DNA of 21,571 nt from a virus. The first letter of the stretch is position 1; the number at the start of each line of letters is the position of its first letter. The position numbers were made by a program, and so were the translations under genes. The notes below the pieces were generated by a model. That model was not told where the DNA came from. It did no database searches and saw only the letters and a list, made by a program, of their open reading frames with translations. Below, in pieces: positions 16,758-21,571 of the stretch. The DNA is taken from IMG/VR virus record IMGVR_UViG_3300047357_000778, positions 1 to 21,571 of that record; one strand, 5' to 3'.

Positions 16758-17182
16758 CTTGGTTATACAACGGAGATGTGATAGATACACTTCCCGACGA
16801 CTGTGAAGCATTTGTGTACTTAATCACAAATAAGAAGAACGGCATGAAGTATGTTGGTAAAAAACTTGCTAAATTCAAAACGACCAAACCTCCCTTAAAA
16901 GGCAAAAAAAATAAACGTCGTGGTTACAAAGAAAGCGACTGGAAAACTTATTGGGGTAGTTCAGATCATTTGAATGCTGATGTTTTAAAATATGGAGAAG
17001 ATAATTTTATCAGAGAAATTCTTCATATGTGTCCTAGCAGGGGTATCTCTAGTTACTTAGAAGCCAAAGAACAGTTTGACAGAGAAGTACTACTAAGTGA
17101 CGATTACTATAACGGCATAATCAATGTTCGTATAGGTGGTTCTAAAGTTCTTAAAGAACATTTAAAAAACCCAAATATTTAA
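16754..17182 (+). CDS. GIY-YIG domain protein (possible nuclease)
   Basis: A 142-residue protein with GIY-YIG features: VYLIT at 21-25 in place of GIY and KYVGKK at 32-37 in place of YIG, then a basic insertion (about 37-57, many Lys/Arg) and SDWKTYWGSS at 61-70. YLEAKEQF (101-108) offers Glu residues for the metal site and YYNGIINVR (118-126) the conserved Asn. In this superfamily such proteins include homing endonucleases and repair nucleases. No DNA-binding tail typical of I-TevI is present. Its ATG overlaps the gp46 stop (ATGA), which suggests a stable role with the gp46/47 unit rather than a recent insertion. It converges on the oxygenase gene with a 21-nt overlap. Function is inferred. 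Confidence 0.75.
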   Translation: MTWLYNGDVIDTLPDDCEAFVYLITNKKNGMKYVGKKLAKFKTTKPPLKGKKNKRRGYKESDWKTYWGSSDHLNADVLKYGEDNFIREILHMCPSRGISSYLEAKEQFDREVLLSDDYYNGIINVRIGGSKVLKEHLKNPNI

Positions 17183-17632
17183 ACTCCATCTAACACCGTC
17201 GATAATTTCTTTTACTTCGTGTTTAGTATCACCTTTAAACAAAATACAATCTCCTATACATAAAGGAATTTCTTGTTGGTCAACTATTACTTCGCCACCT
17301 GCGTAAGCATTATTCAATGCTAATAAAATTGTGTACGTTGAAGGATCGCTATGCAATTTACATACATCTCCCTTTTCGTACATACATACATACATATTAC
17401 TGTTAGAATCAATTTTTAGTAAATCTGTTATCCATTGTTCTGTGTGTTTTTCAAGTCTAATACGTTTAGTGTTAATAAAATTTTCACTCCACTTCCCTGG
17501 TAAAAGAGAACCTTTACCAAACTGTTTTAAAGAATTAGTGAATGTAGGCAGTTGGTTTATAATCTGTTCACACTGATTGCTAGACAAAGCCTGTCTAATT
17601 ATTGTTGGCTGAGTACTTGGCATCTTGATCAT
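17162..17632 (-). CDS. 2OG-Fe(II) oxygenase
   Basis: A 156-residue protein of the prolyl-4-hydroxylase-like 2-oxoglutarate/Fe(II) family. The iron-binding triad is visible as H94-S-D96 (in KLHSDPSTYT) and H138 (in GDTKHEV), with R148 ten residues later to hold 2-oxoglutarate. The core strands YTILLALNN, GGEVIVD and DCILFKG match the double-stranded beta-helix. Such enzymes are frequent in marine T4-like phages; the substrate (protein, nucleic acid or small molecule) cannot be read from sequence. ATG at 17632 or 17623 are both possible and neither has a clear ribosome site. CATAAGTA at 17638-17645 on this strand is a weak late-box candidate. Upstream lies the 590-nt stretch with the predicted RNA. 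Confidence 0.85.
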   Translation of the reverse strand: MIKMPSTQPTIIRQALSSNQCEQIINQLPTFTNSLKQFGKGSLLPGKWSENFINTKRIRLEKHTEQWITDLLKIDSNSNMYVCMYEKGDVCKLHSDPSTYTILLALNNAYAGGEVIVDQQEIPLCIGDCILFKGDTKHEVKEIIDGVRWSLNIWVF

Positions 17633-17687: not shown

Positions 17688-17695
17688 TATAAGTA
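17688..17695 (+). promoter_or_regulatory. Possible late-type promoter box TATAAGTA before the predicted RNA
   Basis: TATAAGTA differs from the T4 late box by one base and lies directly upstream of the folded region on the strand its wobble pairs support. The surrounding AGATA-TAAG-TATCT is palindromic, so the match could be chance. Confidence 0.3.
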
Positions 17696-18097
17696 TCTAT
17701 TGAATACAAACATGGCACCCACAGACACAAAGTCTAACTTCTAAAAACACATACAAACAACACATACGGTTGACGGGCCAATTATGATTCCGTTGCGAAA
17801 CCCACCCTGACGTGAGGTGGTAAGCATGAGCATTGGTTGTTATGCGATTCTTAGCACTACCCGAAAGGATGCTGAAATGTCCACCCACTGGTGAGATACA
17901 TTTGCTAAGTCTTAATAGTTGTGAAAAGTATTGCTATACTCTATATTCTCATGTGTGAAGCGAGATGAGATTAAAAATCGACGCAGGTTTGGTAAGGTCA
18001 GAGCCCAATAGAGTGCAAACAAAATACCTGTCTTCGTTTATGGCTGACGTGTACTCGCATGAAGTCTTTTTTATGGAGCCTTATTGCTTGGCTTCAT
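17696..18097 (+). ncRNA. Predicted large structured non-coding RNA, unknown family
   Basis: No credible protein gene lies in 17633-18221. Instead a near-continuous chain of hairpins can be drawn. H1: GGTTGACGG 17768-17776 with CCGTT 17790-17794 and AACC 17799-17802. H2: CCACC 17802-17806 with GGTGG 17816-17820. H3: GCAT 17824-17827 with ATGC 17842-17845. H4: TTAGCA 17851-17856 with TGCTGA 17870-17875. H5: AAATGT/ACATTT (17875-17880, 17898-17903) around CACC/GGTG. H6: AGTAT/ATACT (17927-17940). H7: TCTCAT/ATGAGA (17947-17970). Then CAGGT/ACCTG and GTCAG/CTGAC cross each other (17984-18048), and H8: ATGGAGCC/GGCTTCAT (18073-18097). Loop GCCAAT (17777-17782) can kiss loop ATTGGT (17832-17837). 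Several stems need G-U pairs on plus and would be A-C on minus, which sets the strand. It is not a tRNA, tmRNA, RNase P, SRP or 6S RNA that I recognise. The ends are uncertain. Confidence 0.6.
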
Positions 18098-18134
18098 ATG
18101 ACCTCGGTATCTGCATGAAATCGATTAACTTAAT

Positions 18135-18223
18135 AAAAAAGTTTCAATCAAGTGAATGAAGTGAGTGAAACGAACGAATGAATGTAGATTGAAAAGACAC
18201 GAAGTGTCTCATACTTGAAACTT
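18135..18223 (-). terminator. Terminator region of the gp26/gp51 transcript
   Basis: On the minus strand, a first hairpin just after the gp51-like stop has AGACAC/GTGTCT arms (18209-18204 and 18200-18195) with a TTC loop and a T-run to 18192. Further on, AAGTTTCAA (18223-18215) can pair perfectly with TTGAAACTT (18147-18139), followed by four T (18138-18135). Either or both would end transcription before the predicted RNA on the opposite strand. Confidence 0.55.
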
Positions 18224-18455
18224 AAAATTCTTCTACAGATTTGCCTGACTTGATCTGATTATATTTGTTAATTACTTTTATAGTAACTTCACGTTCTTTA
18301 ATAGACATCATCTGAGTTTCTTGCCAAGATATACTACCTCCGCTATACACGGCTATTTCTATAAGGCTTTTTTCTAGGGTATCGGCTTCTTTGCGGAGTC
18401 GGTTAAGTAACTCCAATACTGCCTCGGGTTCTGCTTTTGCTAAGAAGCCATGGAA
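18222..18455 (-). CDS. 51: gp51-like hub-assembly chaperone region, read by -1 frameshift from gp26
   Basis: A 77-codon reading frame in the -1 frame relative to gp26, beginning FHGFLAKAEPEAVLELLNRL and continuing as a charged helical domain (LRKEADTLEKSLIEIAVYSG, SWQETQMMSIKERE, SVEEF). It has no ATG anywhere; the only possible independent start is TTG at 18416 with a modest GAGG 5 nt upstream. Position after gp26 and the small helical character fit the gp51 baseplate hub assembly catalyst of T4-like phages, but sequence identity was not tested. The first codon given is the one reached after the AAATTTT slip. The fused product would be 357 residues (280 from gp26 plus 77). As in lambda G/GT, the extension may recruit tail subunits to the tape measure. 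Confidence 0.65.
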   Translation of the reverse strand, partial: FHGFLAKAEPEAVLELLNRLRKEADTLEKSLIEIAVYSGGSISWQETQMMSIKEREVTIKVINKYNQIKSGKSVEEF

Positions 18456-18461
18456 AAATTT
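18384..18461 (-). promoter_or_regulatory. Predicted -1 programmed ribosomal frameshift signal
   Basis: In the gp26 frame the mRNA reads GTA AAT TTT TCC. This contains the slippery heptamer A AAT TTT (18461-18455), of the X XXY YYZ form, four codons before the gp26 stop. After a 5-nt spacer, GGCTTCTT (18449-18442) pairs perfectly with AAGAAGCC (18391-18384), an 8-bp stem. Its 50-nt loop holds an inner hairpin GGAGT/ACTCC (18414-18410, 18399-18395). Slippage by -1 leads into the open 77-codon extension. Confidence 0.7.
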
Positions 18462-19294
18462 ACAGGGTCAAAACCAATCGTTGCTGGATAAACATTTTCA
18501 CATTCCTCACAGGATTGTTGAAATTCTTTGTTTACACCTAGATTGTTTACTTCTGAAATTTGTTTTTCAATCTCATTACCAATACTTGCTTCACAGTTCT
18601 CTAAGAACTCTCTGATACTGTTTACATCAGTGACAATAAATTTTTCACCATCTGCTTCGCCACTAATACTGTTTACACTATCAACAATAAGTTGGAAGTT
18701 CAAGCCAGCAATGCTTTTGAAGTTTTCATTGAATGCTTTGAGTTGTTCCATTTCGTCTTTTACTTCTTGCAATGCTTGTAAACTTCTCTGTGTTTTAAAG
18801 TTGGCAAGTCCTGCCTGTATTGTGTTTTCATATAAGAATGGTTGTATAGTTATTTCCAATCCAGAATCTGTTGTGAATTTGTAATCTTCTTGTACAGTTA
18901 CCATTGCGTCTAAGCAACCTTCCACACTTGCCGCACCTACATTTTCTGCTTCACACTTTGGACATGTAGAAGCAACTTTTATTTCGTCGCCGTATGTTGC
19001 ACCTTGTATTGCTATTAATAATGTATCAACATCGTTGCTGATCATTTTTCTTGGTTGTTTGATGCTAGGCACACAACTTTTGATAACCTGTGCTACTGCT
19101 TCTCCATTTAGCAATGCGTCTGGATTTTTCATGATCATTTCGTCTTTTGCTGTCATTGGAAAAATAGGCAATTCATCTGTATCAGGCCAGTCTATGATAT
19201 TGTCGTCATAGTATTTCCCGCCTGTTGGTATTTTTGTGTACATCTTAGGTGCACGGTAAAATCCTGATAGAGGGTTGTTATTACTTTTTGCCAT
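18440..19294 (-). CDS. 26: Baseplate hub assembly protein gp26-like (T4_baseplate family)
   Basis: A 284-residue protein starting MAKSNNNPLSGFYR, with the family N-terminus MYTKIPTGGKYYDD and ELPIFPMTAKDEMIMKNPDA, LLNGEAVAQVIKSCVPSI and DVDTLLIAIQGATYG. In T4, gp26 (208 residues) helps assemble the baseplate hub. Here two CxxC pairs (C111/C114 in STCPKCEAE and C262/C265 in SCEECEN) could form one zinc site enclosing the C-terminal helical domain. ATG at 19294 is chosen for its AGGAG ribosome site 8 nt upstream; a longer frame to 19345 adds only hydrophobic residues read through the leader. The last codons lie on a predicted -1 frameshift site. It is divergent from the tape-measure-like gene. 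The chaperone role by analogy with lambda gpG is inference. Confidence 0.85.
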   Translation of the reverse strand: MAKSNNNPLSGFYRAPKMYTKIPTGGKYYDDNIIDWPDTDELPIFPMTAKDEMIMKNPDALLNGEAVAQVIKSCVPSIKQPRKMISNDVDTLLIAIQGATYGDEIKVASTCPKCEAENVGAASVEGCLDAMVTVQEDYKFTTDSGLEITIQPFLYENTIQAGLANFKTQRSLQALQEVKDEMEQLKAFNENFKSIAGLNFQLIVDSVNSISGEADGEKFIVTDVNSIREFLENCEASIGNEIEKQISEVNNLGVNKEFQQSCEECENVYPATIGFDPVNFSMAS

Positions 19295-19393: not shown

Positions 19394-21571
19394 ATGGCTG
19401 AAATGATTACAATCACTATTAATGGGGAACAAATTAAGGTTCCTGCATGGTCTACTGATTCTACTCAGCAATCATTGATAGATGAAATCAATAAACTTAA
19501 TAATCTTTCTAAAGCTCAAAAAGAAGCAATGCGTAAACTTGCTGAAGAAACAGCAAAAGGCAACAATACTGAGAAAAAACAGAATGATGAATTGATTAAA
19601 GCAATCAATGAAATAAAAGATGAGTCCAAAGGTGGTGCAGGCGCATTCCTAAAGGATCTTGATATTGTTGGTAGTGGATTTAAAGTTTTAGGCGGCACAC
19701 TAGCCATTGGACTTGCGGCATTAAGTACTTTTGTTTATGCTGTAAAAGGATTAGGCGATGATTTAAGAGATTCAAGAGGAGGAACCAGTTTAGACTTAGA
19801 GGGCGGTGGAGACATGGCTTCGGGTGCTCAGTTTAGAACCTCCATGCAGATGCTGGGCTATACAGCAGATGAACTGAATGCTAGATTCCAGGATACATCA
19901 GCCATTGTAGCAGTAGCAGGCAGAAAGTCATTTTTTGAACTAACAAAAGAAATACAAAATTTAACAGGTGCAGGTGGTAATTTAGGTTTAAGCCTTGTAC
20001 AAATTGGTGAAGCATTAGATAACGATTTAAAACTTAGACAGCAAATTGGTATCTTGAATATGCTTGACGGCAATGCTCAAGCAAAACGTTCTGCAAAATT
20101 ATATGAGATGCAGTTAAAGGCAACTGCAATACTTGGTAAAAGTATTGATGAAATATCAGGCTCTGCAGATGACACTTTAACAACAAATGCTTCTGTGCAA
20201 CTATTATTACAGTCAATGGGCGAAGGCTCTCAAGGATTTGTAGATCAAATTAATAGAACAGCAAGTGAACTATCAGCATCAGGATTAAGCCAAGGTGTAA
20301 ACAATGCTATACAAAATGCAATGTTGGAAAGTGTTGCATTTAGAACAGACGCCGGCGGTGATTTGTTTGAAGCATTAAGTGTACTAGATGCACAAGCAGG
20401 CTCAAATCTAACAGAAAGAATACAACAAATTAATGCACTAAGTAAGTCAGATCCAATTGCGGCACAAAAACTTATGTCAGAATTTGGACCTGCATTGGTT
20501 AATTCTGCTAAGAGTCTAACGGATGAACAACTTGCAGAGATTAGGCCTCTGATTGAGAACTTTGGGGAATTAGGCACACAACTTAATCTATCCATAGGTC
20601 AATTAAGACAGTCAGGTAAAGCCGCTGAAGATATCAGTGAGTTGGCACAATCAGCCGCAACATACGACAATGCTCTCAAGAAATTTAATTCCAGTATAAA
20701 CGGAGCAACAACCTCATTATTTGGTGCCTTTGGCACACCTCTAAGTCAGGTTATGAATGCATTTACAGAAAGTTCGAGGACACTGGATGGCGTTGCAATA
20801 ACTAATAAAGAATACATGAAGCTCACAGATAAGCAAAAGTTACAGGTAAAAGGACAAGCAGGCATTTTTGAAACACTTAACGAAGTGTTAGAGGATATAA
20901 TGGAAGCATTCACTGGCTTATTTGGTAAAACAGATGAAGCAACTGGTAAAGTAGCCAGTTTTGCAGACATGATTAGAACTAAATTGAATCCTATTATTAA
21001 GAATGTGGGAGAAAAATTTGCCAACTGGATTGACGGTCTAACAGCACAAGACGTAGAAGGATTTATAGATAATTTTATCAACGGACTTAGATTAGTAACA
21101 GGAGTAATTTCAACACTAGCAAGTGTTATAGGCGGTATCCTCAGTTTTATTATTGATACAGACACAGATGAGAACGGAGTAGAGCAATTTGATTTAAGTG
21201 GTACAATAATTAATGCAATGCTGATTGCCTTTGGTGCTAGTGTAGTTAAAAAAGCCATCGGTTCACTGTTCACAGTTGGTGCTGATAAACTTATTAGCAA
21301 AATACCAGGAGTTGGCAGTACAGGTAAAGATCTAGAAAAGACTGGTAAAAGTGCAGGTAAGGGTGCAAAAGGCATGTTGGCATTTGGTGTAGCCGCCGCA
21401 GGTGTTGGTGTTGCATTATTTGGTATATCAGATGCAATGGAAACATTTAAAGAAATGACCACAGGAGAAATTGTCAAAGGTGTTCTTGGTATTACAGCCG
21501 CATTATTACCATTTGGAGTTGCAATAGCACTTCTAGGAGCGGCAGGCACAGGCCCACAAGCAATAGGTCTG
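19394..21571 (+). CDS. Tape-measure-like tail protein, partial (C-terminus beyond the right edge)
   Basis: The frame is open from ATG at 19394 to the last base (726 codons visible). The protein starts MAEMITITINGEQIKVPAWS, followed by a charged helical part (about 25-80) and a hydrophobic segment at about 93-117. A long polar, Gln/Ser/Ala-rich helical region follows to about 560. Further hydrophobic segments lie near 566-588, 660-676 and 697-718. Long helical stretches broken by Gly/Ala-rich hydrophobic segments are typical of tail tape measure proteins, which set tail length and may help DNA cross the inner membrane. The adjacent gp26/gp51 frameshift pair supports this, since tail chaperones usually sit beside the tape measure. 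It is not recognisably T4 gp29 by sequence. A different internal virion protein is the alternative. No strong ribosome site is visible. Confidence 0.7.
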   Translation, partial: MAEMITITINGEQIKVPAWSTDSTQQSLIDEINKLNNLSKAQKEAMRKLAEETAKGNNTEKKQNDELIKAINEIKDESKGGAGAFLKDLDIVGSGFKVLGGTLAIGLAALSTFVYAVKGLGDDLRDSRGGTSLDLEGGGDMASGAQFRTSMQMLGYTADELNARFQDTSAIVAVAGRKSFFELTKEIQNLTGAGGNLGLSLVQIGEALDNDLKLRQQIGILNMLDGNAQAKRSAKLYEMQLKATAILGKSIDEISGSADDTLTTNASVQLLLQSMGEGSQGFVDQINRTASELSASGLSQGVNNAIQNAMLESVAFRTDAGGDLFEALSVLDAQAGSNLTERIQQINALSKSDPIAAQKLMSEFGPALVNSAKSLTDEQLAEIRPLIENFGELGTQLNLSIGQLRQSGKAAEDISELAQSAATYDNALKKFNSSINGATTSLFGAFGTPLSQVMNAFTESSRTLDGVAITNKEYMKLTDKQKLQVKGQAGIFETLNEVLEDIMEAFTGLFGKTDEATGKVASFADMIRTKLNPIIKNVGEKFANWIDGLTAQDVEGFIDNFINGLRLVTGVISTLASVIGGILSFIIDTDTDENGVEQFDLSGTIINAMLIAFGASVVKKAIGSLFTVGADKLISKIPGVGSTGKDLEKTGKSAGKGAKGMLAFGVAAAGVGVALFGISDAMETFKEMTTGEIVKGVLGITAALLPFGVAIALLGAAGTGPQAIGL

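Follow-up and report, generated by a model that had tools for sequence, protein, structure and literature searches.

Architecture of the gp26-like locus

The window analysed here, a 21,571-nucleotide (nt) stretch of viral DNA comprising positions 1 to 21,571 of the IMG/VR record IMGVR_UViG_3300047357_000778, carries on its minus strand a gene related to gp26 of bacteriophage T4 that has the features of a programmed -1 ribosomal frameshift. The open reading frame (ORF) of this gene, 19294..18443, encodes 284 residues and ends at the TAG codon 18442-18440; on the basis of alignment with relatives, ATG 19294 is preferred as its start over the upstream GTG 19345. The 284-residue product, putatively the short form of a tail assembly chaperone, matches the family PF12322 T4_baseplate (E 8e-12, 45.7 bits against a cut-off of 24.5) and phrog_150 baseplate hub (E 4e-17). 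Its AlphaFold model, predicted with IMG/VR rows as the only input (mean predicted local distance difference test, pLDDT, 82), matches the viral model ‘Baseplate hub assembly protein, bacteriophage T4-like’ (E 4e-25).

Close to the 3′ end of the gene, the heptamer A AAT TTT (18461-18455) lies in the gp26 frame, followed by the four sense codons TCC ATG GCT TCT and then by the TAG. A 5-nt spacer, TCCAT (18454-18450), separates the heptamer from a perfect 8-bp stem with the 5′ arm GGCTTCTT (18449-18442) and the 3′ arm AAGAAGCC (18391-18384), within which lies an inner GGAGT...ACTCC hairpin (18414-18395) that is less conserved (64% of cells paired). From the slip site, the -1 frame runs without a stop to the TAA at 18224-18222, giving an extension of 77 codons plus stop (18455-18222), and the predicted fusion product has 280 + 77 = 357 residues with the junction FDPVNF/FHGFL. 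A sequence-only reading of the window had proposed the heptamer four codons before the stop, the spacer, stem and hairpin, and both lengths, and all of these hold. The same reading described the -1 frame as free of ATG codons, which is true of the first 48 codons but not of codons 49-50, both of which are ATG. Because those first 48 codons lack an ATG, the full extension cannot start at one; a TTG at 18416 opens a 64-residue ORF within the extension.

Conservation of the slip site and the -1 frame

Scanning IMG/VR with the gp26-like protein recovered 42 loci, 39 of which hold the 3′ end, and in all 39 complete loci AAATTTT precedes the stop by 19 nt and the -1 extension runs to about 77-79 codons. 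A second scan, made with a profile of the window's clade, yielded 56 distinct loci that partly overlap those of the first. The heptamer is kept in 56/56 of these relatives, a count obtained with a set of patterns of which one contains FDPVNF and selects amino acids, not codons. The stop is in the same place in 55 of them; the 56th locus, L307, keeps AAATTTTTTC and stops later. In this locus (L307:1800-1930) the usual gp26 stop is replaced by TCG, which makes the short form several codons longer and leaves the slip site intact. As in chaperone genes of the lambda G/GT type, the overlapping -1 frame has no start of its own and is conserved in relatives.

The codons around the junction are under synonymous constraint. 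A codon alignment of 25 relatives contains 72 columns in which a degenerate gp26 amino acid is invariant; only four of these use a single codon, and all four (GTA, AAT, TTT and GCT) fall in the last seven codons of gp26. Elsewhere in the gene, AAT and AAC occur at about equal frequency and TTT makes up approximately 70% of the phenylalanine codons. The presence of the heptamer in every relative, together with a synonymous codon choice that is frozen around the heptamer only, shows that the site is more than a chance occurrence. A +1 shift was also considered and was rejected, as in most cases the +1 frame ends shortly beyond the stop, and its length is not conserved.

In most members of the clade A AAT TTT overlaps a second in-frame heptamer, T TTT TTC, and a slip on either one would produce an identical junction peptide. 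T TTT TTC has been lost several times by a change of TTC to TCC, including in the window (the tree needs five changes, three of them forced by well-supported branches). Because A AAT TTT has never been lost across the clade, while T TTT TTC has been lost repeatedly, the former is most likely the working slip site here. We also considered whether loss of the second heptamer is offset by stronger RNA structure; the uncorrected comparison gave a p value of 0.02, and once relatedness was taken into account three independent pairs were left and the sign test gave a p value of about 1, so the idea was rejected.

RNA structure downstream of the slip site

Folding of positions 18460..18380 gave -21.1 kcal/mol (z -2.8), a value that 1 in 200 shuffled sequences equalled. 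In several lineages, 75-nt windows were compared with dinucleotide-shuffled sequence. Just after the slip site the mean z was -2.3 in the window's clade, -2.2 in cyanophages, -2.9 in five reference phages and between -1.5 and -2.1 in jumbo phages, whereas control windows upstream gave -0.95 to +0.4. For the window's clade and the cyanophages taken alone, the upstream controls lay between -0.6 and +0.3, compared with about -2.2 just past the slip site. In the window's relatives the outer stem contains two covarying pairs, at alignment columns 13-78 and 19-72, and on codon reading the changes at columns 19-72 are synonymous in both frames; the covariation signal fades further out. A downstream stimulatory RNA structure, frequent but not obligatory in the G/GT type, is indicated here by the localized folding signal and by the two covarying pairs. 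The expectation that the stem would be kept with compensatory changes is borne out among close relatives, but the stems of other lineages differ: that of Atu_ph07 follows the plan of the window, with a 10-bp outer stem around an inner hairpin, and S-PM2 has a long hairpin.

In the cyanophage-like loci (L065, L066 and L081-L160), GAG GGN is often found within the 24 nt that precede the poly-T heptamer. GAG accounts for 31 of 41 glutamate codons just before the cyanophage slip site, compared with 28% elsewhere, figures that are not corrected for relatedness. The bias suggests, as a lead only, an internal ribosome-binding element of the dnaX kind.

The same arrangement in cultured phages

The cultured relatives of the window's gene belong to giant phages, at 24-35% identity. 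All twelve jumbo phages examined (Phosso, GAP32, Atu_ph07, PA5oct, Vibrio 2.275.O, RaK2, CBB, XaC1, 121Q, Munch, XacN1 and RAS14) carry either T TTT TTC or T TTT TTT where the corresponding FF is encoded, and a homologous extension of 70-80 codons follows in the -1 frame. Within the window's clade, one member (L346, IMGVR_UViG_3300024228_000554) sits on a contig of 339,794 bases, on account of which the window itself probably derives from a giant phage. Genes 88/87 of Salicola phage SCTP-2 (L361) may share the layout of gp26 plus extension, with a weak match to the extension (27% identity, E 0.04).

A similar layout occurs outside the jumbo phages. S-PM2, P-SSM2, HTVC008M, phiM12 and KVP40 each have one PF12322 gene over threshold, with a poly-T heptamer and a -1 extension, and a separate scan of cyanophage-like loci found T TTT TTC ten nt before the stop in all 52 distinct loci. 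The records of S-PM2, P-SSM2, HTVC008M and KVP40 annotate gp26 and a separate short gp51. The annotators of KVP40 noted that this short protein resembles a 40-residue stretch at the C terminus of T4 gp51, and Sullivan et al. (2010) described cyanophage gp51 as being without the first 200 or so residues (PMC3037559). A frameshift fusion would supply cyanophage gp51 with a homologous domain, and what is annotated as a short ‘gp51’ in cyanophages is very probably the part of the gp26 product that is read after the frameshift. If so, the records in this group annotate the pair wrongly.

Relationship of the extension to T4 gp51

The sequence-only reading had called the extension gp51-like, correctly as it turns out, by way of the cyanophages. 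In HHalign comparisons the cyanophage fusion matched T4 gp51 at 99.2%, covering 12-283 of 292 positions with the extension included, and the cyanophage extension matched the gp51 C terminus at 96.8%. The window plus jumbo fusion matched the cyanophage fusion end to end at 98.9%, the window clade matched the jumbo phages at 98.8%, and gp26 and gp51 matched each other at 99.0%. Compared directly with gp51, the window plus jumbo extension gave 81.7%. The extension is homologous to the gp51 C terminus, the window's clade being linked to it by steps through the jumbo phages and the cyanophages.

Two paralogous genes, gp26 and gp51, are present in T4, 44RR, an Acinetobacter phage and a Klebsiella phage; the sequence-only reading had noted separate genes in T4. 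A comparable slip site was not seen in T4, 44RR or the Klebsiella phage. In a tree of the gp26-like domain, the gp26 and gp51 of the two-gene phages form sister clades (95/85) inside the frameshift lineages, with KVP40 next to them (85/69, weak); the long gp26 branches call for caution. The tree fits what seems to be a single event in which the lineage of T4 exchanged the frameshift for a duplicated gene. We lean towards a scenario in which the common ancestor of the T4 superfamily, with the giant phages among its members, already used the frameshift, and a single duplication later took its place in the lineage of T4. In the window's clade, the poly-T site would then have been overlaid by A AAT TTT and subsequently lost several times, so that the slip site was swapped and the junction peptide stayed unchanged.

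A probable frameshifted gene for a chaperone pair, and the alternatives

The conserved slip site, the conserved frame and the localized RNA structure in relatives give strong support to the proposal that a -1 frameshift joins gp26 to the extension, and the programmed frameshift is almost certainly real and functional. Slippage itself, how often it would occur, the ratio of the two products and their role as chaperones belong to a model that we infer, in which most ribosomes would stay in the gp26 frame and terminate at TAG 18442 to yield the 284-residue protein. A minority would slip back one base on A AAT TTT, aided by the RNA stem 5 nt downstream, and continue for 77 codons to give the 357-residue fusion. 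A short protein accompanied by a minority long form made by -1 frameshifting is typical of tail assembly chaperones; the two forms are best read as such a pair. They would be the counterparts of T4 gp26 and gp51, and would most likely serve the tape measure and the hub. As a whole, a frameshifted gene that produces a short and a long form, most likely tail assembly chaperones, is in our judgement a highly probable explanation of the locus.

One alternative treats the extension as a small independent gene, a short gp51 with its own start, and supposes that no fusion is made. Four of the records discussed above annotate a short gp51 after gp26 in this way, and in the window TTG 18416 could serve as the start of the 64-residue ORF. 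However, conservation of the open -1 frame begins at the slip site, upstream of any start, and in 46 of the 56 distinct relatives the first 45 codons of the extension lack an ATG. Initiation at TTG 18416, which the sequence-only reading had itself set against a fusion, was rejected as the position is TTG in none of the 56. Nor would a separate gene freeze the AAT TTT codons of gp26, and T4 gp51 holds a gp26-like domain and the extension in one chain; taken together, these points make a separate gene very improbable. Homopolymer T runs are generally error-prone, and a sequencing or assembly error in one contig could have split a single gp51-like gene, but the same heptamer, stop and -1 frame recur in many independent metagenome contigs and in cultured phage genomes, which refutes an error of this sort and makes its probability negligible.

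T4 gp51 is required for baseplate assembly and is absent from the particle, and both gp26 and gp51 have been listed among the hub assembly chaperones (PMC3004832). The frameshift could, accordingly, be real and the long form act only in hub assembly, as described for T4 gp51, without belonging to a tape-measure chaperone pair. Against this, a short-plus-long product of -1 frameshifting is the hallmark of tail assembly chaperones, and T4 gp29 is both a hub component and the tape measure, so that the hub and tape-measure roles may be one. The chaperones of T4-like phages were, moreover, assigned by Vladimirov, Gautam and Davidson (Virology 2022, 566:9-15), according to two papers that cite them, on PRFect (PMC10885494) and Adele (PMC12846349). 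A role confined to the hub is unlikely on this evidence.

Several observations weigh against a frameshifted chaperone pair of the gp26/gp51 kind. Compared directly, the extension of the window's clade and the gp51 C terminus gave a weak HHalign match (62.7%), and the window plus jumbo fusion reached only 13% against the whole of gp51. The extension matches no chaperone family in Pfam or PHROGs, and NCBIfam likewise gave none. RNAalifold found no common long stem among 18 relatives, so the stem is not one conserved RNA. Finally, the large ORF next to gp26 in the window has no match to a tape-measure family and is a candidate tape measure by position only. This ORF (19394..21571, plus strand, 726 residues before it runs off the window) is transcribed divergently from gp26. 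The corresponding ORF has 829 to over 960 residues in relatives, a large ORF lies in the matching position in several jumbo phages, and the neighbouring ORF of one relative, L025, has a weak tape-measure match (E 7e-4). The sequence-only reading had placed the frameshift beside the tape measure; a large ORF does adjoin gp26, but it is divergent and only may be the tape measure.

Foldseek found no significant PDB match for either part of the product, and no sequence relative was found among solved structures. The HK97 chaperone 2ob9 aligned at Z 5.3 over 90/104 residues, among unrelated rows of similar Z.

Neighbouring features

A 2-oxoglutarate (2OG)-Fe(II) oxygenase-like gene (17162-17632, minus strand; PF13640, E 1e-7) adjoins the tail genes. 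Between it and the end of the extension, about 530 nt (17690-18220) contain no convincing gene; this interval gave sub-threshold Rfam matches only (Polynucleobacter-1, 18.6 bits against 37) and showed no excess of folding (z 0.07); no other copy in IMG/VR was found with a 22-nt probe from it.

Comparison with known systems

Frameshifting reportedly appears conserved in several T4-like groups, T4's own group being said to use separate genes. Poly-T frameshift sites in the chaperone genes of T4-like phages are credited to Vladimirov et al. (2022) in the PRFect and Adele papers (PMC10885494, PMC12846349), as is the observation that some of these phages have a short gene plus a separate, fused long gene instead. 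The sequence-only reading had proposed a link between T4-like phages and G/GT-type chaperones; by the account of these citing papers, it had already been made. This kind of frameshift is deeply conserved among T4-related phages and already known there, and the window is a well-supported further example. Our analysis adds the marine clade, the A AAT TTT site, quantitative evidence and the jumbo phages; Vladimirov et al. (2022) may or may not include the jumbo phages. The known range of the frameshift thereby takes in giant phages as well as an uncultivated clade that occurs in many metagenomes, and the set provides a natural series in which to study both the swapping of slip sites and the replacement of a frameshift by gene duplication.

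The window differs from lambda G/GT in showing no sequence relation to it in family searches, in its heptamer, and in the orientation of its large neighbour, which is divergent, whereas that of lambda lies just downstream. As far as can be compared through the citing papers, the T4-like chaperones of Vladimirov et al. resemble the window in having short and long forms; they use poly-T sites, whereas the window's clade uses A AAT TTT, the poly-T heptamer being lost in the window itself. The short ‘gp51’ of cyanophages and KVP40 (phrog_634) likewise follows gp26 in the -1 frame and is similar to the C-terminal region of gp51, with T TTT TTC ten nt before the stop in place of A AAT TTT and an extension of about 60 rather than 77 codons. 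T4 and its near relatives stand apart in having two separate paralogous genes and no slip site, yet their gp26 and gp51 belong to the same family as the window's gene (PF12322, phrog_150), and gp51 has the same composition as the predicted fusion, a gp26-like domain followed by an extension.
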